From: Acutalibacter sp. 1XD8-33
Lineage (GTDB): Bacteria > Bacillota > Clostridia > Oscillospirales > Acutalibacteraceae
Reading direction: 5' to 3'
Length of the DNA: 64,000 nt
Assembly: GCF_003612555.1 (NCBI RefSeq)
Contig: NZ_RAZF01000001.1
Location: 248,001-312,000, forward strand
Part shown: positions 13,195-61,489 of the stretch, one piece after another
Layout: the number at the start of each line of letters is the position of its first letter
Position numbering within the stretch: the stretch's first letter is position 1
Translations under genes and position numbers: made by a program
The notes under the pieces: generated by a model
Told to the model about the DNA's origin: nothing
Seen by the model: only the letters and a program-made list of their open reading frames with translations
Databases searched by the model: none

Positions 13195-13598
13195 GTGGGC
13201 CTCCGGCGGGGAGGGATTCCACCCCGCCAAACTATTTGAAAAAAGTTTGGATCAAAAACTTTTACCCTGGTTGGCTGTTTCGCACTCAGCTAACCAGGGT
13301 AAAGTTTTCGTCGTCTCAGCTTCCGGTTCGGTCGGCGCTTGACGGTCTCCATCGGAAACCAGCGTCCTTTTCAAAAAGTGGTAGGGTGTGGGGGTGAGCG
13401 TCTGCCAGTGGCAGACAAGCTGCGAACCGACCGAGCCAGCAGGCGAGACCCAAAGCCCCACACCCTTGCCGGAGACTGCGGTCTGTGCCGCCGAAGGCCC
13501 CCTACTACTCCCCAAAAATCACTGCTCCAGATGACTATAGGAGAGGACTTCACCCGCTTTATGAGTTTGTAATATTTCGTTTTCCATACATAAAGTAT
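13195..13598. repeat. left flank: 270-bp direct repeat carrying a vestige of atpC
   Basis: Bases 13287-13557 repeat 15445-15714 with only about a dozen differences. The end of this copy (about 13519-13557) corresponds to the last 13 codons of atpC, on the minus strand, with a 2-base insertion that breaks the frame (AGGAGAGG against AGGAGG). Bases 13423-13449 are a copy of the interspersed CGAACCGACCGAG motif. Bases 13220-13275 hold smaller AAACTTTTT-type inverted repeats. No functional gene is supported in the gap. Confidence 0.85.
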
Positions 13599-14172: not shown

Positions 14173-15452
14173 TTATTTTACCCATATCTTATATCCTACC
14201 ATATCTGTAAAATAATTCATTTTGACAAATTTCCCATAATCATGCCATCCATTCATTACAAAAAGATACGGGGTTCCTGTTGTGCTTTTAGCATATCCAA
14301 AATTGAACACGGAATGTCCTTGCTGAGCAAACAGGTTTTCTCTATATCTTAAGCTCAGATGGATAGGGCAGTTACCCTTTAACGCTGTTTCATATTCTGA
14401 AAAAGCAGCACCGTTTGGAATCTCCTTATAGTCCCAACTATAAAAGGGCCCAGCAGGAGTATAAGAATTTCTGATATCCACTCTTTATATTTTCCCTAGT
14501 TGTACCAGATGATGTACTGGTATTCATACACGTGGATATCCATTCGAATATTCGATTTTGTGTGTCGCTATCATAGGTAAATCCACTGACATACCAATGA
14601 TCCAAAACACTTCTTTTACCTCGTTTTTTCCCCCAATACCAAAGTATATTGGCAGCAGCTGTAGGGGCACAAACCCCTCCATCGCTAAAAGAACTCATCA
14701 GCCGATAGTCCGTTCCCTCACCAAAGTTTGATATTTTGAAAACAGAAGAGTTAGAGATTTTCGCTTCACTCCAGCTTATAATGCCGGGTCCAATCAAATC
14801 TTCATCCTGGCTACCGTAGGGAACAAGCTCTTCTTCACTTTGTAGAACTTCCTCAACTTTCTCTTTAGAAACCGTTTCACGGTTCTCAATAAAGAAATAG
14901 TCGTTTCCGTTACTAACAGCAAGATTACCCGAACCAATATATAACATTTTCTTATTATCAAGATCAGAAAAGGACAAACTTGCGGACGAGATTTCATCGT
15001 TTTCAACAGTTAAACATTGCGGTTCAACAAAAAAACTCATCGGCATCTTTATATAGTTCTTCCTCAACAGCGCTGATTGGCCCGTTGCCATCAAATGAAA
15101 ATTCAACGATGGGATCAGTTCCGTCAATCAAACTCAACATAACATACCCGGCACTGATACCATTAGCTTCAAATGTCATATAGCATCCGGTCAGATTGTC
15201 GTCATAGTCAAAAAGAGGCGAGACAGCTCTTACGGCAATATCCTTTTCTGGCTGTGAATCTCGCATAAAGCTATACCCATGATCCGTCATTTGTGCAATA
15301 CTGGTGTTGATCATTTCGAGCCTAGCAAGCTTTTCGCTCTCGGCCTGAGCTGTTAGACCAAAGCTCTCTATTGTCAAGATTGACAGAACGAGCAGAGTCG
15401 CCATCATTCTCATTGCCAGCATTATTTGGATAGTTTGAACGGTCCAGCTCAC
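14173..15452 (-). pseudogene. C39-like secreted cysteine peptidase, two frameshifts
   Basis: Three minus-strand frames join into one protein. The first (15452-15024) has a signal-peptide-like start (MMATLLVLSILTIESFG) and a pro-region. The second (about 15035-14465) contains GGVCAPTAAANILWYWG with the nucleophile Cys. The third (about 14475-14173) holds GHSVFNFGY with the catalytic His and VMNGWHDYG with Asn. The first break is at a run of seven T residues (minus strand, near 15031-15037), where six would restore the frame; the second is near 14465-14485. The 5' end runs into the repeat and lacks a ribosome site. Sequencing error at the homopolymer cannot be excluded for the first break. Confidence 0.75.
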
Positions 15453-15714
15453 AAGGGTAAAGTTTTCGTCGTCTCACCTTCCGGCTCGGTCGGCGCTTAA
15501 CGGTCTCCATCGGAAACCAGCGTCCTTTTCAAAAAGTGGTAGGGTGTGGGGGTGAGCGTCTGCCAGTGGCAGACAAGCTGCGAACCGACCGAGCCAGCAG
15601 GCGAGACCCAAAGCCCCACACCCTTGCCGGAGGCGGCGGTCTGTGCCGCCGAAGGCTCCCTACTACTCTCCAAAATCTCACTGCTCCAGATGGCTATAGG
15701 AGGACTTCACCCGC
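15445..15714. repeat. right flank: 270-bp direct repeat overlapping atpC 3' end
   Basis: Second copy of the repeat at 13287-13557. Here it continues without interruption into the body of atpC, so this is the original junction. It includes the atpC stop (15678-15680) and about 230 bp downstream, with the interspersed CGAACCGACCGAG motif at 15582-15608. Confidence 0.85.
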
Positions 15715-21044: not shown

Positions 21045-21540
21045 TTTGATAACCTCCTGGAAATTTTTTAAGTATTTTATATGGGCGCGTGGGTGCGTGC
21101 GCTGGCTGATTGCGGAGCACAGGGCGCTGGCGCGCGAATTGGCTTGGCAGCTGCGCCCACAGTTGGCCGCTTCCGGGGCCCAAGGGCTTTGTCCTGCCTG
21201 CGTTGCAGTCGGGGGTTCCCTACGCAAAACATCCCACTGGGATGTTTATGTTACCCTCCTGCGTTGCTTTCTCAGGTGTTAAGGGCAAGACCGTGGGACG
21301 TTGCTAAGGCACACCCTACCACCTTTGAAAAGGTGGACGAAACTTTTACCCTGGACGGCTTTGGCCGGTCCAGCGGGCCAAAACTTGGCAACGCCAAGTT
21401 TACCGCTGGCGGGGTGTGGGGGTGAGCGTCTGCCAGTGGCAATCGTTCTGACCCGACCGAGTCGGCAGCCGAGACCCTTTGGCGGCGAAGGCCACTCCGT
21501 ATTACTTTCAAAAAATATGTTTTGTGTGGGCTATTCTCTG
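21045..21540. repeat. repeat mosaic splitting atpB from atpE
   Basis: A 496-base gap inside the ATP synthase operon, where these genes are normally a few dozen bases apart. It holds the TTCTCAGGTGTTAAGGGCAAG module (21268-21300), the block TGGGACGTTGCTAAGGCACA shared with 47911-47930, inverted repeats around CATCCCACTGGGATG (21229-21243), and a variant of the CCGACCGAGTCGGCAG motif (21452-21475). No gene is supported. It may place a processing or termination point after atpB. Confidence 0.75.
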
Positions 21541-29043: not shown

Positions 29044-29569
29044 GGCGTTTTTGAGAGGTTTACGGGGGGCTTTTCGGGCGCAATGGCGCGTCCAGATTTC
29101 AGCGGGTAAGGCGCGCTCTCAGCTGGTACGCCTGTGCGCTCAGTCAGCCTTCTCCGGTACTAGGCCCCTTTTTCACTTGCAAAAAGGGGCCTCTTGCCGG
29201 CCTTCGTCCGGCAATTCACCACCAAAAATGCGCATCTCAGGAGTTTAAGGTCAAGAGATAAGACCTTGAGGGCGTTGGGTCTCAGCTGCCGCTTCGGTCG
29301 GTTCGCAGCGTGGTCTGCAATACTTGGCTTTGCCAAGTATCCGGCAGAACGCTCACCCCTCAAATTCCCACGAGCTTTTGAAGAAAGCTAAGACTTCGCA
29401 GAGCGAAGTCTGCAAAACTTTTACGGTGGTTAGGCTAGCTCGGCAAAAATATGTTAATTGTCTGCGACGAACGAAGTGAGGAAGCAGGGGAAAAGTTTTT
29501 GATCAAACTTTTTTCAAAAAGTTTGTGGGGTGTGGGGCAACGCCCCACACCTTAGAAAGGAGAAATCTC
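29044..29569. repeat. intergenic repeat mosaic
   Basis: 526 bases without a supported gene. Bases 29161-29191 form a hairpin around AGGCCCCTTTTT/AAAAAGGGGCCT that recurs at 56556-56586. Bases 29233-29260 carry the CTCAGGAGTTTAAGGTCAAG module. Bases 29279-29345 are a reversed GGTCTCAGCTGCCGCTTCGG / CTTGGCTTTGCCAAG module. Bases 29466-29560 (GACGAACGAAGTGAGGAAGC ... GTTTGTGGGGTGTGGGGCAA) are nearly identical to 44946-45041. Confidence 0.75.
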
Positions 29570-34873: not shown

Positions 34874-34909
34874 ATCTTGTCCCTCCCATCTGAACCGCTC
34901 TACCGTCTG

Positions 34910-34940
34910 GTTCAAAAGAAGTGTTTCGTCTCTTTTGAAC
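34910..34940. repeat. isolated hairpin of the GTTCAAAAGA type
   Basis: A 10-bp perfect stem (GTTCAAAAGA/TCTTTTGAAC) with an 11-base loop, matching the first hairpin of the 105-bp elements at 40541 and 56261. It lies in the leader of the minus-strand hypothetical gene. It is probably a partial or degenerate copy. Confidence 0.6.
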
Positions 34941-35083
34941 TACATTAACGGTATATGACCGGATATTGGATCTCGAACATGCTGATGCTATTCCAAATTA
35001 TGCAGGGAGAGGGGAAAGTGTGAGAAACACAAGAATTTAGAGTGATATCCAGCAAGTTTCATAAAATCTTTTTAGGAAACCGA

Positions 35084-35159: not shown

Positions 35160-36815
35160 TTGAGAACAAGAATGATTTCGGCCAGCGGCAAATATTTGCT
35201 TTTGCCCATCGCGGGCCAGCTCCGCATGTTCCCGCCCTCGGGAAAGCTACAGATTCTGGGCCTGTACCGGGACGAACAGCTTCTGGAAGAGTTGGAGCTG
35301 AACCTCTCGGTCAGCCCCCGGGCCTGGGGCGTCCTGTACCTGGAGCCTTACGCCGGCCAGGAGCTGGAGCTGCGGCTGGAGGGCGGGGACGAGTCCCTGC
35401 TGGACCTGCTGGAGGTGGCCGATGAGCCCAAGGACGCGGACACCCTCTACCGGGAGCCGGAGCGCCCCCTGGCCCATATCACCCCGGCCCGGGGCTTTAT
35501 GAACGACCCCAACGGGCTTTTCTATTATAAAGGGGAGTACCACTACTTCGCCCAGCTGAATCCCTACGGCTTTGTGCCGGGGAACACCCACTGGATGCAC
35601 ATGGTCAGTCGGGATCTGGCCCACTGGCGGGAGCTGCCCTACGCCCTTCTTCCGGACGAGACCGGGCGCATGTACTCCGGGGGCGGCATTGTGGACGAGA
35701 ACAACACCTCCGGCCTGGGAAAGGACGGGGAGCCCCCCATCTTCTTGTTCTACACGGCAGCGGGCAGCAAAACCCATTGGAGCAAGGGCCGGCCCTTTGA
35801 AATTGCGGCGGCCGTGAGCACCGACGGGGGAAGGACTTTTGAGAAGCTGCCGGAAAATCCCCTGGTGCCTAATATCCTCTTTATGAACCGGGACCCCAAG
35901 GTGGTATGGGAACCGGAGGGGGAGAACTGGGTCATGTCCATCTTCCTGGACAACGACCGGTACATGTTCCTGTACTCCAAGGACCTGATCCACTGGGACC
36001 AGGGGGACGTCTGGGAGATTCGGGGCGCGGCGGAGTGCCCGGACCTGTTCTGTCTGCCCCTGGACGGGGACGAGACGAAAAAGAAGTGGGTGCTCTGGGG
36101 CTCCACGGACTGCTATCTGGTTGGGCATTTTGCGGGCAGGCGGTTTGTGCCGGAGGGCCCTGCGGTGGAGGGCTGCACCAAGAAGCTCCACTCGGCCTAT
36201 AGCGTTTCCGCCTGGTCTCCGGGGGGCTACGCGGCCCAGACCTTCACGGGCCTGCCGGGTGGCCGGGTGGTGCAGGTCTCCTGGATCCGGACCTGGACCA
36301 GCCGGGGGCCGTTTTCCAGCTGCGCCAGCGTGCCCAGCGAGCTGCGGCTGGTCTCCACAGCGGAGGGGCCCAGGGTATTTTTCTGGCCCGTGGAGGAGGT
36401 GGAAAACTTGTATCAGGACGGCTTTTCCTTTGAGAACCGGGGCCTGGAGGAGTTCGAGCGGATCCCCCGACAGGCCCTGGGGGAGGCCATGGACATGACC
36501 TTCCGGCTGACCGTGAAGCCGGACCAGCCCATCGCCTTTTCCGTGCGGGGGGTGCTCATTGTGTACGACCCCCGGCTGGGGCGGCTGATGCTACCCAGCG
36601 GCGCCTACGACGTGGGCCCGGTGGGGGATACCCTGGAGCTGCGGATCATCACGGACCGGATGTCCATGGAATTCTTCGTCAACGGCGGGCAGTTCCAGAT
36701 TTCCCTGGCTACGGTGCTGGACCCCGCCCAGACCGGCATCACCCCCGTCTACCTGGAACCCGGCATTGGCGTGGACTTCGAGGTCCACCGGCTGGGGGGC
36801 ATCTGGGAGACTTAA
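35160..36815 (+). CDS. GH32 family beta-fructosidase
   Basis: 551 residues. About 95 residues of beta-rich sequence precede the five-bladed propeller, and a C-terminal beta-sandwich follows. Catalytic residues are visible: nucleophile Asp116 in FMNDPNG, Asp245 in NRDPK and acid/base Glu292 in AECPDLF. The family hydrolyses sucrose, levan, inulin or fructo-oligosaccharides. No signal peptide is present, so it is likely intracellular, acting on short imported sugars. The TTG at 35160 has AAGGAGGAG 9 bases upstream; the ATG at 35172 is too far. A LacI regulator and sugar importer lie downstream. Confidence 0.93.
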   Translation: MRTRMISASGKYLLLPIAGQLRMFPPSGKLQILGLYRDEQLLEELELNLSVSPRAWGVLYLEPYAGQELELRLEGGDESLLDLLEVADEPKDADTLYREPERPLAHITPARGFMNDPNGLFYYKGEYHYFAQLNPYGFVPGNTHWMHMVSRDLAHWRELPYALLPDETGRMYSGGGIVDENNTSGLGKDGEPPIFLFYTAAGSKTHWSKGRPFEIAAAVSTDGGRTFEKLPENPLVPNILFMNRDPKVVWEPEGENWVMSIFLDNDRYMFLYSKDLIHWDQGDVWEIRGAAECPDLFCLPLDGDETKKKWVLWGSTDCYLVGHFAGRRFVPEGPAVEGCTKKLHSAYSVSAWSPGGYAAQTFTGLPGGRVVQVSWIRTWTSRGPFSSCASVPSELRLVSTAEGPRVFFWPVEEVENLYQDGFSFENRGLEEFERIPRQALGEAMDMTFRLTVKPDQPIAFSVRGVLIVYDPRLGRLMLPSGAYDVGPVGDTLELRIITDRMSMEFFVNGGQFQISLATVLDPAQTGITPVYLEPGIGVDFEVHRLGGIWET

Positions 36816-37248
36816 GGTCGTGGGACTCTGTCCCACACCCTGCAAGGGGCCTAACGCCCCTTGACCGCGTAATGTCACTCCTCATTACATTCGTCGTGAA
36901 GGTTTTATGTGTTTTGACGAGCTGACCGAACAACCGTAAAAGTTTCGTCAACCTTTTCAAAGGTTGCGGAGTGTGAGGCAGAGCCTCACGACCTTGCCCT
37001 TGACCTTAACACCTGAGAAGCGCAATTTTTGCGGGGTGAATTGGCGAGCGAAGTCTGCCAAGAGGGGGGCTTTTTGCAAGAATAAAAAGCCCCCCTGGAA
37101 ACCGGAGAAGGCCAGCTCTGTGGGCACGGAACGAGCCGCAAGACCCGCCCGGCCCTGTGCCCCGCAACCAAGTAACGCGCGCACCCACGTGCCCATATAA
37201 AAAATCCCATACTCTATCGAATTAGAAAAAATTTTTGGAGGTATCATC
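36816..37248. repeat. intergenic repeat mosaic
   Basis: 433 bases, no gene supported. Bases 36881-36965 carry reversed GTAAAAGTTTCGTCAACC-type modules. Bases 36990-37020 are a reversed copy of CTTCTCAGGTGTTAAGGTCA. Bases 37065-37097 form a hairpin of GGGGGGCTTTTT with AAAAAGCCCCCC. The block resembles 47700-47930 and 49840-50000 in order of parts. Confidence 0.7.
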
Positions 37249-38430: not shown

Positions 38431-38804
38431 AACCCCGTGGGAGAGGTTTAAACGCGCATTTTTTGGACGATGTTTTGGAGTCTCGCCTGCCGGCTCGGTC
38501 GGTTCACAGCTTGTCTGCCACTGGCAGACGCTCACCCTCCGGGTTCTTAGGGGCGTTGCCCCTAAGAACCCTACCACCTTTTGAAAAAGGTGGACGAAAA
38601 CTTTACCCTGGTTAGTTGGATGCGCCCCAACGAACCATTTGCGCGATCAAGGGGCGTTAGGCCCCTTGTGGGGTTTGGGGCAAAGCCCCAAGGTCTTGCC
38701 GTAGGGCGCGGCAGACTTGGCTTTGCCAAGTCTTGTGCGCCCGAAGGCCTTCCAATACTCAAAAACCAATTTCTCGCGCCAGCCGCATCCCCGGCGGAGG
38801 AATA
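38431..38804. repeat. intergenic repeat mosaic before the LacI gene
   Basis: No gene is supported. Bases 38480-38535 are a reversed copy of the GTCTCGCCTGCCGGCTCGG motif followed by CTGCCACTGGCAGACGCTCA. Bases 38541-38620 are a palindromic-looking stretch around CCCTACCACCTTTTGAAAAA. Bases 38641-38700 contain GGGGCGTTAGGCCCCTTG. Bases 38716-38731 are the CTTGGCTTTGCCAAG hairpin. Confidence 0.65.
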
Positions 38805-40073: not shown

Positions 40074-40520
40074 ATGGCAATTCGGTTAGAACCCATAACC
40101 GAGGATAATTTTATTGAGGCATTTCATTTGCGGTTGGCTGAGGGTTAGGAGAAATTTGTCTCTCATCCAATCAGAAGTCTGGCGCAGGCTTATGTATATC
40201 GAAATCAATGTCAGCCGTTTGGCATCTGCAATGATGAAAAAATGGTTGGCTATGTTATGGTGATTTATGATTATGATATCCCTGAATATGATATCTGGCA
40301 CATGATGATTGACAGGGCTTGTCAAGGCTGCGGCTACGCACAGAAAGCGCTAAAGAAATGTCTGGAATATATTGATACAAAGCCCTTTGGCGATTCCAAT
40401 CGGGTTGTGCTGACTTGTAACAAAGAAAATTATGCCGCTTTGCATATTTATGAAAAAGCAGGATTCTCTTTTACAGGTGAACAAGACGAAGAGGAGGTCG
40501 AAATGGTGCTATACCGATAA
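40074..40520 (+). pseudogene. GNAT acetyltransferase, interrupted by a TAG stop
   Basis: The frame from ATG 40074 (after AAGGAG) reads MAIRLEPITEDNF, reaches TAG at codon 25 (40146-40148), then continues EKFVSHPIRSLAQAYVY to the end. The remainder has GNAT features: acetyl-CoA loop region RACQGCGYAQKAL and NYAALHIYEKAGF. One C-to-T change (CAG to TAG) would explain the stop. Translation might restart at 40242, which would lack the N-terminal strand. AT-richer than its neighbours; possibly acquired. Confidence 0.75.
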
Positions 40521-40540
40521 CTTCCGGCTTACCGTGGGTT

Positions 40541-40645
40541 ATAGTTAACACGGTTCAAAAGAGGTAGGATACCTCTTTTGAACCAGGCGGCATAGCCGCC
40601 CAGCTTGAAAATCGGTAACTACCGATTTTCAAGTGTGTTTACTAT
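40541..40645. repeat. 105-bp cloverleaf element, copy 1
   Basis: Terminal inverted repeats ATAGTTAACAC / GTGTTTACTAT enclose three hairpins: 40552-40584 (GGTTCAAAAGAGGTA/TACCTCTTTTGAACC), 40586-40600 (GGCGGC/GCCGCC) and 40604-40633 (CTTGAAAATCGGTA/TACCGATTTTCAAG). Copy 2 at 56261-56365 is the same length in opposite orientation and mostly identical, with changes concentrated in loops. There is no coding capacity. Confidence 0.88.
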
Positions 40646-40907
40646 GCGCAAGTATAAAAAGGGCAGGGTAGATCGTTGTGGTCTGCCTTGCCCTTTGACC
40701 TTCCGTCTTTTGTTTTCAGAGTTGAAGAAATATTCCACTTAAGAATTATAAAAGTGGAAGAATAATTCATTTATCGATATAAAAATATAGACAAGCGATT
40801 GCGCTGAAAAAAAGAAGTATAATGCCGAATTACCTAAAAAGCACGGGAAAACTCCCGAAGAAAACCATTTCTTCACGTAAAAAAGTGAAAAATTTATGAA
40901 TAACTTA

Positions 40908-44790: not shown

Positions 44791-45067
44791 GATACTTTTT
44801 GTAGTAATACTGTGTGGCCTTCGTACGCACAGGTCGCGTACTACGGCAAGGTCGTGGGACTCCGTCCCACACCCTGCGAGCTTTTGAAAGAGCTCGAGCA
44901 AAACTTTTACGGTTGTTAGGTTAGCGCGATAAAAAAACGTGAATTGTCTGCGACGAACGAAGTGAGGAAGCAGGGTAAAAGTTTTTGATCAAACTTTTTT
45001 CAAAAAGTTTGTGGGGTTTGGGGCAACGCCCCAAGGTCTTAAGGATTTTTTCGAGAGGAGAATGGTT
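44791..45067. repeat. intergenic repeat, near-copy of 29466-29560
   Basis: Bases 44946-45041 (GACGAACGAAGTGAGGAAGC to the TTGGGGCAACGCCCCAAGG hairpin) differ from 29466-29560 in only a few positions. Bases 44850-44885 carry a GTCGTGGGACTCCGTCCCAC hairpin. No gene is supported. Confidence 0.75.
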
Positions 45068-47666: not shown

Positions 47667-48160
47667 TGGGAATTTGCTTTTTTGAAGTGTTAGGAGGCCT
47701 TCGGCACACCGCGCCAAGCGAGGCAAAATGAGCAAGCTGGGTGTGAATGCTCGCCGCTGGCTGGTTCCAGAACTAGGAAACTTTTTTCTCAGTTGCAAAA
47801 GAGATTCATCTCGCACGGCGAGATGAACTCTCCGTTTCCTCTTGGCGCTTTGCGCCAATTCACCTTCAAAAAATGCGCTTCTCAGGTGTTAAGGTCAAGG
47901 GCAAGACCGTGGGACGTTGCTAAGGCACACCCTACCAGGGGCCTAGACGCCTGAGACTTGGCTACGCCAAGTCTTGGACCGCGCAATGTGTTGTGGCTGA
48001 GCTAAACCATATAAATCGTTCACGACGAACGTAGTGAGGAGTGGGTAAAAGTTTCGTCCATCTTTTCAAAGGTGGCGGAGGTGTGGAGGCAGAGCCTCCA
48101 CGACCTTGGGGAGGCCTTGACGAACCGAGAGCAATCCATTATAATAGGAGGGAACGAGAG
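47667..48160. repeat. composite hairpin repeat
   Basis: No gene in 494 bases. Hairpins at 47803-47826 (GATTCATCTCG/CGAGATGAAC type) and 47845-47857 (GGCGCTTTGCGCC) precede CTTCTCAGGTGTTAAGGTCA (47879-47898) and TGGGACGTTGCTAAGGCACA (47911-47930, shared with 21292-21311). Bases 48018-48080 carry the GACGAACGTAGTGAGGAGTG module. Order and spacing resemble 58690-58880. Confidence 0.75.
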
Positions 48161-49660: not shown

Positions 49661-50301
49661 TGAAAGAATAGCGCGAAGCGAAAGGAGACATTTTCCGCTC
49701 TCGCCGGGGCCTTTTGGTTTGCCGAAGCGCGGGCGGGAGATGTCTGCTTTTTTTGAGGGGGACTTCGTCCGCACGCCCAGCTATCCAGGGTAAAAGTTTC
49801 GCCAGCCTTTTCAAAGGCTGCAGGGGTTTGGGGACAGCGTCCCCAAGGTCTTGCACTTGACCTGAAACACCTGAGAAGCGTATTTTTGAAGTGTGAATAA
49901 TAGTTAACGCTCGCTGCGCTTGGTTAACTATCCGAGTTTTGCGAAGCAAAACTCTTAAGAGGAAACTTTTTACAAGGGAAAAAGTTTCCTGGAAACCGGA
50001 ACCCGCCAGCGCTATGTAGCTTTCGTTCGCTTTGCAGATGCAAAGCGAAACAAGAAACCCCCGACGAGGGTTTCTTGCGGAAAACAGTCCAGTGGACTGT
50101 TTTCCTATTTTCCTGCGTTGTTTTCTCAGGAGTTTAAGGGCAAGACCGTGGGGCTCCGCGCCCCACACCCCCGCCAGCTTAAGACCAGCTGGACCGGTCA
50201 ATGTTGTTCTGTAAATCGTTCACGACGAGCAAAGCGAGGAGTGGGTAAAAGTTTGTGGGGTGTGGGGTGAAATCCCACGACCTTAAGAGAGGAGGATGCC
50301 C
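49661..50301. repeat. composite hairpin repeats, two blocks
   Basis: 641 bases with no supported gene. Bases 49846-49990: reversed CACCTGAGAAGCG module, the hairpins ATAGTTAAC/GTTAACTAT (49910-49932) and GAGTTTTGC/GCAAAACTC (49935-49953), and AGGAAACTTTTT/AAAAAGTTTCCT (49960-49990). Bases 50026-50105: three adjacent perfect hairpins (50026-50049, 50051-50077, 50079-50105). Bases 50124-50155: TTCTCAGGAGTTTAAGGGCA. Bases 50219-50252: GACGAGCAAAGCGAGGAGTG. Confidence 0.75.
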
Positions 50302-53051: not shown

Positions 53052-53158
53052 GTGAATTAATCAGTGCTTCCTTCATTGCGTTCACAAAGGTGTTTTGAAC
53101 CAGGCGGCTGATCCGCCTAACTTTAGAACCAACTTTGCCGGTTCTAAAGTTAATTTAC
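53052..53158. repeat. variant three-hairpin element related to the 105-bp copies
   Basis: Outer pairing GTGAATTAA (53052-53060) with TTAATTTAC (53150-53158), and hairpins at 53080-53100, 53103-53117 (GGCGG/CCGCC) and 53120-53150 (ACTTTAGAACC/GGTTCTAAAGT). The centre TTTTGAACCAGGCGG and the end TTTACTAT match the 105-bp elements, but the third hairpin has an entirely different, still perfectly paired, sequence. Confidence 0.6.
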
Positions 53159-53211
53159 TATAATTGCAGGCTGTGCATACAGGCTCTGGATGGAAAGGAG
53201 TCATTCCCATA

Positions 53212-54388: not shown

Positions 54389-54932
54389 CTTCCTTTCTTA
54401 TAATAAAAGGTGAAGCCGCCGGCGCGGGACAAGTCCCTGAAAGGCGGCTTGGCGTGCGCCGGAGCCTTCCGAAGAATATTGTAAACAGCCTGCGCCGGAT
54501 TATGCGGACAAAGTGGTTTTTCTCCGCAGAAGCTGCTTGAGCTCATCTGGATTTGGGTTTGCGGCTGAAAGTCGGTCTGTGTTTTTTAGAGCCGGTCCCG
54601 AAATAAGACATGCGCAGAGTTGTGCTAGAGTTGATCTTCGATGAACTCTTCAGATTTTCTGCTGGAGGTGCACAAGAGTTGCAGAGCAACTCGATTGAGC
54701 GCAGCGAATCAGACCATTTATGGTCTTGCGATTCGGCAAGTGCAAGCTATGTGCTATAGCGAAAAATATGCAAACTGTGTGCGGATTATTTTGGGATAGG
54801 CTCTTAGTAAGGCGTTTCTGAAAAAACGGCCTCAAACTGGCTTAAATGGAAAAAACAGGAAGAAAGGAGCGATATCGGGTTCAAAGATTTTTTATCTTTG
54901 ATTGGGGGAATCCGATATCCTTGGCGGTTGAT
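54389..54932. other. gap with hairpins, no gene supported
   Basis: About 540 bases. Inverted repeats at 54676-54692 (GAGTTGC/GCAACTC) and 54704-54735 (CGAATC..GATTCG enclosing GACCATTTATGGTC) suggest another multi-hairpin element. Bases 54846-54932 are open in frame with the methyltransferase but do not resemble its family start. Confidence 0.5.
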
Positions 54933-56261
54933 ATGAATCTGCCGGAGGTTTTTCTAACGCGGATGCAGGCCCTGCTGGGGGCGGAATATCAGGCATTTTG
55001 GGAGGGATACAGGGAGCCAGCCTTCCGGGGCGTCCGGCTTAATCCTTTGAAATGCGGCGAGGATGTTCTGCGGGCCAGCCTGCCTTTTCCTCTTTTGCCC
55101 TCCGGTTTTGCGCCGGGGGCCTTTTACGGGGACTATCAAGAGGGGGTTGGCCGCTTGCCTGCCCATCATGCCGGAATGTTCTATTCCCAGGAGCCCTCGG
55201 CCTCTTCGGCGGTGACGGCTTTGGATCCCAGGCCTGGGGAGCGGGTGCTGGACCTGTGCGCCGCCCCGGGAGGAAAGTCTACCCAGATCGCCGGGCTGCT
55301 GATGGGCAAGGGCCTGCTATGGAGCAACGAAACTGTCCGGAGCCGCACAGGGGCGCTACTCTCGAACCTGGAGCGGCTGGGGGTGCTAAATGCCGTAGTT
55401 TCCTGCTGCCATCCGCAGCGGCTCTGTCAAGGACTGCGGGGGTATTTCCACAGGGTCCTGGTAGACGCGCCCTGCTCCGGAGAGGGGATGTTCCGGCGGA
55501 ATCCCCAGGCTGCGGCAGAATGGTCCCAGCAGGGGGTGGAGGCCTGCGCGGTGCGGCAGCTGGCAATTCTGGATTCAGCGGCGCTGGCGGTGGCAGGGGA
55601 TGGGGTGCTGGTCTACTCCACCTGCACTTTTTCTCCGGAAGAGAACGAAGGGGTGGTGAAGAAATTCCTTCTGGCCCACCCGGAGTTTGTGCCAGAGCCT
55701 ATTGAGGCTGGTTTCGGCCGGCCGGATTTGCGGGGCGGTCTGGCCCGGCGGATCTACCCCATGGACGGAGGCGAGGGACATTTTGTGGCGCGGTTCCGGC
55801 GGGTAGATGAGAATCTCTGCCGGATAGGGAGCTTTTCTGGGTATCTGGGAGAAAAGCAGGCCTTGGCCGGGCGGGAGCTCTGGGAGGAGCTGTTTCAGGT
55901 TCCCTATCCTGGGCGGCTGGCCCAGGTAAAGGATACCCTGCTCCTTGTGCCGGAGGAGCTGCCCGTGCTTTCCGGGCTGGGAGTTCTGCGGGCCGGGGTA
56001 GAGCTGGCCTGCCTGAGGAAGGGACGGCTGGAGCCTGCCCACGGGGTATTTATGAGTCGGGCGGGGGCGGACTGCCGCGGCGCCCTGAATTTTTCCCCGG
56101 AGAGCCCGGAGCTGGCGGCGTTCCTCCGGGGGGAGGAGATCGACTGCTCCCGCAAGGGCTACACGGCGGTGTGTGTCAACGGGGTGACGGTGGGTTTCGG
56201 CAAGGCCAGCGGCGGACGGTTGAAAAACCGGTATCCCAAAGGCCTGCGGAACCGTTCCTAA
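54933..56261 (+). CDS. RsmB/RsmF-type rRNA cytosine-C5 methyltransferase
   Basis: 442 residues. The Rossmann SAM-binding site is in VLDLCAAPGGKST; the two catalytic cysteines are in DAPCSGEGMF and YSTCTFSPEEN. A C-terminal PUA-like/RsmF accessory region follows (about 300-442). Methylates cytosine in 16S rRNA. The ATG at 54933 gives the usual N-terminus (MNLPEVFLTRM), but its ribosome site is weak; TTG at 54921 or the frame from 54846 are alternatives. Confidence 0.92.
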   Translation: MNLPEVFLTRMQALLGAEYQAFWEGYREPAFRGVRLNPLKCGEDVLRASLPFPLLPSGFAPGAFYGDYQEGVGRLPAHHAGMFYSQEPSASSAVTALDPRPGERVLDLCAAPGGKSTQIAGLLMGKGLLWSNETVRSRTGALLSNLERLGVLNAVVSCCHPQRLCQGLRGYFHRVLVDAPCSGEGMFRRNPQAAAEWSQQGVEACAVRQLAILDSAALAVAGDGVLVYSTCTFSPEENEGVVKKFLLAHPEFVPEPIEAGFGRPDLRGGLARRIYPMDGGEGHFVARFRRVDENLCRIGSFSGYLGEKQALAGRELWEELFQVPYPGRLAQVKDTLLLVPEELPVLSGLGVLRAGVELACLRKGRLEPAHGVFMSRAGADCRGALNFSPESPELAAFLRGEEIDCSRKGYTAVCVNGVTVGFGKASGGRLKNRYPKGLRNRS

Positions 56262-56365
56262 TAGTAAACGCACTTGAAAATCGGTAAATACGATTTTCAA
56301 GCTGGGCGGCTATGCCGCCTGGTTCAAAAGAGGTTATTCAGCCTCTTTTGAACTGTGTTAACTAT
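56261..56365. repeat. 105-bp cloverleaf element, copy 2 (inverted relative to copy 1)
   Basis: ATAGTAAAC ... GTTAACTAT termini enclose the same three hairpins as 40541-40645 in reverse order: CTTGAAAATCG type, GGCGGC/GCCGCC and GTTCAAAAGAGG type. It begins at the last base of the methyltransferase stop codon (56259-56261) and may serve as its transcript end. Confidence 0.88.
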
Positions 56366-56981
56366 AGAAGGCTGTACCAATAGAACGTAGCACGCCGGTT
56401 TTCCCATTCGGACCGGTTCATACCACAAATTATAGGTATACTTTTTGGGTGTTTTTATGGGGGGAACGGCGTGCGGGGTGACTTAGCGACAGGCACACAG
56501 CCTGACGGAAACTTTTGGCTGGGATACTGCGCACGCAGTTGGCCAGTTCCAGGACCAGGCCCCTTTTTCTCTTGCAAAAAGGGGCCTCTTAAGAGTTTTG
56601 CTTCGCAAAACTCGGATAGTTAACCGAGCACAGCGAGTGTTAACTATTATTCACACACCAGAAATGCGCTTCTCAGGAGTTAAGGTCAAGGTCGTGAGGC
56701 TCCGGGTCTCGCCTACCGGCTCGGTCGGCTCGCGGATTGTGTGCCACTGGCACACAGCGACCCCCTGGACCCGGCAATGTGCTCGGCTTTTGCACACTCA
56801 GCTAACCAGGTTAAAAGTTTTGTAGACTTCGCGTAGCGAATGTCTTACTTTTCTCAAAAGTGGCGTGGAGCAGAGCTCCACGACCTTGCCGCAGTGCGAA
56901 GCACGGAGGCTACACAAGTATTACGCTCAAAGGCTATACTTCTTAAGAGTTGTAGTAATAGAGGCTGAACAAGCGCGCTGG
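56366..56981. repeat. composite hairpin repeat and unique spacer
   Basis: 56366-56540 show nothing I recognise. 56556-56586: AGGCCCCTTTTT/AAAAAGGGGCCT hairpin. 56592-56612: GAGTTTTGC/GCAAAACTC. 56615-56647: ATAGTTAAC ... GTTAACTAT. 56668-56690: CTTCTCAGGAGTTAAGGTCA. 56705-56760: reversed GTCTCGCCTACCGGCTCGG module. This is the 49846-49990 block in opposite orientation with a different distal hairpin. No gene is supported. Confidence 0.75.
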
Positions 56982-58546: not shown

Positions 58547-59222
58547 ATGGTTCCTCCGTGTTTTCTATATTATTGGACGGCCTCCGGCGGCTTAGGGAAC
58601 TTTTTGAAAAAAGTTCCCTAAGAACCTTCAAAGACTTTTCCCTGGTTGATTGAGTGTTGTATGCGGCTGGCTTGCTCCGAAACTAGGGGGGCTTTTTATT
58701 CAGTTGCAAAAGAGTTTCATCTCGTTACACGAGATGAACTCTCCGCATCCCTCCGGTAAGAGTTTTGCAAAGCAAAACTCGGATAGTTAATCGAGCTGAG
58801 CGAGATTAACTATTATTCACACCTGCAAAAATTGCGCTTCTCAGGTGTTTAAGTTCAAGGGCAAGACCGTGGGACGTTGTCCCACACCCTACCAGGGGCC
58901 TGTCTCACCTGCCGGTTCGGTCGGGTCAAAACAATCGCCGCTGGCGGTTTTCCCCGCCCCTGGACCGCGCAATATGTTAGGGTTGAGCTAAAACATATAA
59001 ATTGTTCACGACGAACAAAGTGAGGAGTAGGTAAAATGTTTCGTAGACTTCGTTTTACGAAGTCTTACCTTTCTCAAAGGTTGCAGGGGTTTGGGGGCGC
59101 TGGTCCCCAGTGGGGACCGTCAAGCGCCGACCGAGCCGGGGAAGATTGCCGGTGGCAATCGTTCTGACCCGACCGAGTCGGCAGACGAGACCAGGCGAGA
59201 CCAGCGTCCCCAAGGTCTGGCC
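58547..59222. repeat. long repeat mosaic between aroB and tyrA
   Basis: 676 bases, no gene. 58711-58742: TTTCATCTCG/CGAGATGAAC hairpin. 58752-58779: GAGTTTTGC hairpin. 58783-58812: ATAGTTAAT/ATTAACTAT hairpin. 58838-58875: CTTCTCAGGTGTTTAAG module. 58902-58930: GTCTCACCTGCCGGTTCGG module. 59010-59035: GACGAACAAAGTGAGGAGTA. 59128-59192: two partial CCGACCGAG modules. This is the fullest composite in the window. Confidence 0.75.
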
Positions 59223-61054: not shown

Positions 61055-61489
61055 GAAAATCATCCTTTCAAAATAGCAGTAAGCCTTTTGCGAAAATATT
61101 TTTTTGAGTAATAAAAGTCCTCCGGGCGCAAAGAAACGGTCTCGCCTCCCGGCTCGGTCGGTTCGCGGCTTGTCTGCAATACTTGGCAAAGCCAAGTTTT
61201 CCGCCCCTGGACCGCGCAATTTTGTCTGGCATCATCCATTCCAACACAAAATTTTGGCAGCAAAAAAGCGGAGCGCCACGGCTCCGCTTCCGGCACGGGC
61301 CCCAGCCCGCGCAAAACCTTATCTTCCCGCCCTCCGGACATTCTACCGGAGTCTATGAAGAAACGCAGCCGTCTATTCTTTTCCACGCCAAAAAAGCCCG
61401 CATAAATCGCAGGCTAAAGTAATAATAAAATCGCTTTGCGTGGGAAACTCTCATATTCGACTGCCTCAATCCCATAGATTATTTTTATT
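61055..61489. repeat. intergenic repeat between aroK and aroF
   Basis: 435 bases without a supported gene. 61139-61168 hold the reversed GTCTCGCCTCCCGGCTCGG motif, followed by the ACTTGGCAAAGCCAAGT hairpin (61181-61197) as in 2551-2567. AT-rich bases 61400-61489 lead into the aroK end and show no clear signal. Confidence 0.65.
61259..61286 (-). terminator. intrinsic terminator of the aroE-aroK unit
   Basis: Read on the minus strand, GCGGAGCC and the facing GCTCCGC form a stem followed by TTTTTTGCTG. It lies about 205 bases past the aroK stop. Confidence 0.65.

Follow-up and report, generated by a model that had tools for sequence, protein, structure and literature searches.

A probable MITE with a cloverleaf fold, inserted at TA dinucleotides in Acutalibacter genomes

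Introduction

A 64,000-nucleotide stretch of the Acutalibacter sp. 1XD8-33 genome (hereafter the window) carries two short cloverleaf sequences in opposite orientation, and the question is what kind of unit they represent and what keeps their arms paired. The original prediction proposed either a miniature inverted-repeat element (MITE) or a REP-like element, mobilised in trans and selected for its structure. The analysis described here favours, with a probability of roughly 85%, a non-autonomous Acutalibacter MITE that would be mobilised in trans by a transposase of the IS630/Tc1-mariner type and whose hairpins are kept at the DNA level.

Results

Structure of the two window copies

The two elements are each exactly 105 bp long and lie on opposite strands, as predicted. 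Copy 1 starts 20 bp past the stop codon of the open reading frame at 40242-40520, which is indeed a broken GNAT gene, truncated at its N-terminus and covering Pfam positions 45-116 of 116. Copy 2 abuts a methyltransferase gene, also as predicted; this gene (54846-56261) encodes an RsmB/F-type rRNA methyltransferase, and the last A of its TAA stop codon is the first base of the element. Differences between the copies fall mostly in loops. When folded as DNA, both form a closed four-helix cloverleaf in which an outer stem surrounds three hairpins, with folding energies of -40.8 kcal/mol for copy 1 (shuffle mean -8.8; z -14.8) and -30.0 kcal/mol for copy 2 (shuffle mean -8.5; z -8.7). As RNA, either strand of copy 1 is about equally stable. 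The predicted inverted ends and three hairpins are thus both present, the ends being imperfect rather than exact repeats (ATAGTTAACGC / GCGTTTACTAT, with one conserved mismatch). The T.T mismatch at position 6/100 of the outer stem is kept in 80 of 83 copies, a constant difference between the left end and the right. The copies, their parts and two partial copies are as follows.

40541-40645, + strand: cloverleaf MITE copy 1; mobile unit 40542-40644, TAG...CTA
40541-40551, + strand: left terminal inverted repeat ATAGTTAACRC; T at position 6 (40546) opposite T at 40640
40552-40584, + strand: hairpin 1 (GTTCAAAAGAGGTA / TACCTCTTTTGAAC), from fold and covariation
40586-40600, + strand: hairpin 2 (GGCGGC / GCCGCC), from fold
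40603-40634, + strand: hairpin 3 (CTTGAAAATCGGTA / TACCGATTTTCAAG), from fold and covariation
40635-40645, + strand: right terminal inverted repeat GYGTTTACTAT
56261-56365, - strand: cloverleaf MITE copy 2; target duplication TA whole at 56365-56366, the other decayed
53091-53161, + strand: decayed partial copy, model positions 34-105 (nhmmer match C17:301091-301161)
34888-34950, - strand: weak partial copy, model positions 3-65 (nhmmer match C17:282888-282950, E 1e-7)

Copy number, host range and size variants

The elements proved to be members of a large family, as the prediction required. A genome-wide search with a covariance model built from 24 copies (threshold E 4e-8 or better) places the element at no fewer than 73 distinct sites in the 3.6-Mb genome, a lower bound from scoring part of the candidates, and blastn recovers at least 40 copies in the same 3.62 Mb. 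For the end motif ATAGTWAACRC there are 154 matches, and for the reversed control a single one. Copies lie in both orientations and mainly between genes, and none contains a gene; the absence of a gene, the inverted ends and the high copy number together define a MITE.

The element is carried by 12 of 29 Acutalibacter genomes. Outside the genus, neither blastn, run on 31 genomes, nor the covariance model, run on about 195, detected the element, and across 197 genomes of the order the model matched only the genome of origin and G010, both of this genus. Matches to the end pattern outside the genus amounted to two singletons in 300 genomes of the family, both apparently within coding sequence and set aside as chance; the exact pattern occurs 0 times in IMG/VR viral contigs. 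A search of open-access papers on repeats in Acutalibacter gave no description of the element, and the family looks undescribed, its kind (MITE) being already known.

The ends are constant, and the interior varies so that the whole measures 25-135 bp, well below 300 bp and without coding capacity. The main size class is 102-106 bp; classes of 113-114 and 119-121 bp carry a longer central hairpin (in the 113- and 120-bp subtypes, hairpin 2 gives way to nested hairpins of greater length), and one class reaches 135 bp. Short classes consist of one hairpin (about 52-55 bp) or of the ends only (25-33 bp). Judging from their sequences, some of the short forms may have arisen when DNA between short direct repeats within the structure, such as TTCAA in G010, was deleted.

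Target site and mobile unit

The element is inserted at a TA dinucleotide, which is duplicated. Four kinds of empty site reveal this. The first is a repA-like gene that is interrupted at two places in the genome and intact in about ten related loci; the empty site reads GGCTGG-TA-TGACG and the occupied one GGCTGA-A[TAGT...ACTA]TA-TGACG, the duplication being visible on the right side only and the left TA being altered. At the second (C6:79709, at a gene end), the joined flanks align without a gap to G022 and G018. At the third (C39:224664), the element lies within a different MITE of about 187 bp, nine uninterrupted copies of which in G005 and G018 read TTTCTACG. The fourth is a further repeat of about 200 bp that holds several copies and also exists without the element. 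At the last three, one TA (or a one-base variant) is present before insertion and two after it. Across the family, a T precedes ATAG in 69 of 83 copies and an A follows CTAT in 64, and both occur together in 52, with about 4 expected from base composition. In the window, copy 1 has TA at 40540-40541, and its right-hand TA has degraded to TG (40645-40646). The empty sites and the flanking T and A together define the mobile unit as TAG...CTA, 103 bp, with a TA duplication on either side. The 105-bp sequences originally described are therefore real, and the unit that moves is 103 bp plus its TA target duplication. With copy number, inverted ends, TA duplication and empty sites in agreement, the MITE option of the original prediction is supported.

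The two interrupted repA-like genes (L182 2263-2360, G000:C9; L136 16020-16117, G000:C6:96020-96117), whose flanks are about 8-14% apart, carry the element in identical form (98 bp) and at the same base; mobile elements may have recombined with each other, or one site may have been hit repeatedly.

Other repeats around the element

Intergenic regions of the window are pieced together from numerous short palindromic modules in varying order and orientation (2411-2776, 13219-13517, 15426-15675, 21278-21476, 29132-29557, 36814-37031, 38475-38738, 44848-45043, 47686-48108, 49781-50290, 56380-56860, 58692-59192 and 61138-61204). Two of these modules have the same ends as the MITE.

49900-49931, + strand: 32-bp palindrome with the ends of the MITE (ATAGTTAAC...GTTAACTAT), a module of the intergenic repeat mosaic
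56616-56647, - strand: second 32-bp palindrome module with the ends of the MITE

From the ends of the 32-bp palindromes we infer a possible kinship with the MITE; the usual context of the ATAGTTAAC palindrome is AAAACTCGG...TATTCACCACC. A direct repeat of 231 bp, 96% identical, occupies 13287-13517 and 15445-15675 of the window, 2158 bp apart. The other MITE, of about 187 bp (TTAGGGCTTGTTTGAAAA...), is present in eight near-identical copies in G005 (L249-L256) and hosts a cloverleaf copy at L130 4664-4768. The third repeat (AGAAGCTGTACCGATAGGATTTGTGTT...GGTACGGCTTCTTA) contains the cloverleaf in about eight copies and lacks it at G000 C6:76008, C28:264435, C28:148291 and C61:128583; beside the cloverleaf it sometimes holds another TA-flanked hairpin (TACTTTCTGAGAGAC...CAAAAAGTA), so that MITEs are nested within it.

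Search for a transposase

Duplication of a TA target is a hallmark of IS630/Tc1-mariner transposases, and the same duplication in this element suggests that such a transposase acts on it in trans. IS630-type DDE_3 genes are present in 6 of 12 element-bearing genomes and in 1 of 17 element-free genomes (Fisher p 0.011, with genome size and relatedness uncontrolled); the other six element-bearing genomes, several of them incomplete, gave no DDE_3 match. A resident IS630 was considered as the parent and rejected: its ends, TATTATTCC/TATTACCCC (TATTAYYCC...), differ from the MITE end TATAGTTAAC. A scan around the other DDE_3 loci for ends matching the element was negative, and no autonomous element, with a gene enclosed by TATAGTWAACRC, turned up in 34% of the genome of origin (1.23 Mb) or in the single-contig G022. 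End pairs spaced 1914, 3276 and 5740 bp apart were likewise rejected as long elements, being neighbouring separate elements or chance. MITEs that have no known autonomous partner are common, so this absence leaves the class assignment standing.

As a separate observation, an IS630-type insertion sequence of 1103 bp (L267 931-2033 in G022; L266 656-1758, G000:C49) has many near-identical copies in G022, seven of which were compared, and the G000 copy is about 99% identical. Its transposase is divided by a stop (ATCTAAAGGTGG), which may reflect programmed frameshifting.

Covariation of the paired arms

The cloverleaf fold is unusually well kept across the family. In an alignment of 77 copies from eleven genomes, fitted to the covariance model, changes on both sides are found in 21 of 38 pairs, against 6.4 in shuffles, and double-change cells number 76 against 18.3; none of 500 shuffles reached the observed covariation, and the signal vanishes when partners are slid. 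In an independent MAFFT alignment of 83 copies, double changes number 117, and shuffles average 25. Pairing is therefore retained through compensatory changes far in excess of both controls, as the prediction anticipated.

Discussion

Proposed mechanism and alternatives

In the proposed mechanism, a DDE transposase of the IS630/Tc1-mariner type, specific for TA and with its gene located elsewhere or since lost, would recognise both slightly different ends and move the element by cut and paste, and the hairpins would persist through pairing that is conserved or repaired at the DNA level in source copies rather than through an RNA function of each copy. Mobilisation in trans, as predicted, remains likely for an element that encodes nothing and for which the searches returned no autonomous copy; no insertion sequence with matching ends was found. 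The fold may itself be the working part, as an extruded cruciform or a single-strand fold recognised by the transposase or the replication machinery, but this we consider doubtful; were it so, the element would be a structure-dependent, TA-inserting MITE in which the fixed T.T mismatch distinguishes left from right.

Covarying helices, a fold that is stable on both strands, and the placement of 37 intergenic copies (13 convergent and 4 divergent, a mild shift from the 95 and 87 of 397 gaps) are what a structured RNA or bidirectional terminator family retained for cellular function might display. Such a family is improbable, however, given a distribution that is patchy within one genus, copies that decay and fragment, a coding gene interrupted by insertion, and a scan of the window against Rfam in which nothing scored above the gathering score. 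RNA-level selection is expected to tolerate G.U far better than A.C, whereas one-sided changes to G.T and A.C are equally frequent (95 vs 82, p 0.37), which argues against single copies being held as RNA structures; individual copies are read as decaying neutrally, with pairing kept in spreading lineages. Movement as single-stranded DNA by a RAYT (REP-associated Y1 tyrosine transposase), the REP/REPIN-type alternative, accords with the strong hairpins and mainly intergenic location, and one copy does lie about 300 bp from a Y1 gene, but the repA-like gene that this copy interrupts is separate from the Y1 gene. Of 18 Y1 loci, 16 have no copy within about 1.5 kb and none has a copy on each side. 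Several genomes rich in the element (G005, G015, G018, G022) lack Y1 genes, which the element-free G012 and G016 possess, and the distribution of Y1_Tnp does not follow that of the element (Fisher p 0.11). Y1 insertion is not known to duplicate TA, and REP palindromes measure 20-40 bp, against 105 bp here. The REP-like half of the original prediction, with its associated transposase, is thus abandoned as highly improbable.

Quite possible, if short of probable, is that the element is the same MITE but that its arms stay paired because repair copies one hairpin arm from the other (quasipalindrome template switching), the structure itself not being selected. Template switching is known to yield multi-base compensatory changes without wobble intermediates (PMC8794818). 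Some copies, such as L013, L110 and L314, carry matching changes or indels in both arms, and the central hairpin has been exchanged for other near-perfect hairpins. Against this, private double changes number 12, compared with 7.1 in shuffles (maximum 14), and are not in clear excess; most double changes are thus inherited within subfamilies, a pattern that fits either cause. Of the predicted selection on structure, the maintenance of pairing stands, and either selection at the DNA level or template-switch repair may account for it. With many natural insertions, exact empty sites and four helices that covary, the family is suited to asking which of these two processes produces compensatory change in DNA hairpins. 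It also warns that covariation by itself is no proof of an RNA gene, and it explains some of the clutter between genes in these gut bacteria.

Comparison with known systems

REP/REPIN elements with RAYTs are, like the Acutalibacter MITE, palindromic, intergenic and present in many copies; the MITE differs from them in size, TA duplication and lack of RAYT association. The ends of Correia elements may resemble those of the MITE in sequence. Correia/NEMIS elements of Neisseria share with it a length of about 107 bp, a longer variant with an internal insert, inverted ends and TA termini (PMC2229807). Correia ends measure 24 bp, whereas those of the MITE are shorter, with a fixed T.T mismatch, and enclose three internal hairpins. 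RUP (repeat unit of pneumococcus), which measures 107 bp and numbers about 110 copies, is the standard case of a MITE with a proposed IS630 mobiliser, IS630-Spn1; it resembles the Acutalibacter MITE in length, high copy number, terminal inverted repeats, TA target and mainly intergenic location (PMC3049150, PMC2229807). An IS630 has been proposed to act in trans on RUP (PMC3049150, PMC2229807), whereas no insertion sequence with matching ends was found for the Acutalibacter MITE. With RUP compared by description rather than by sequence, the MITE is set apart by a GC content of about 40-43% against 27.5%, by its four-helix cloverleaf and by its exchangeable central hairpins.
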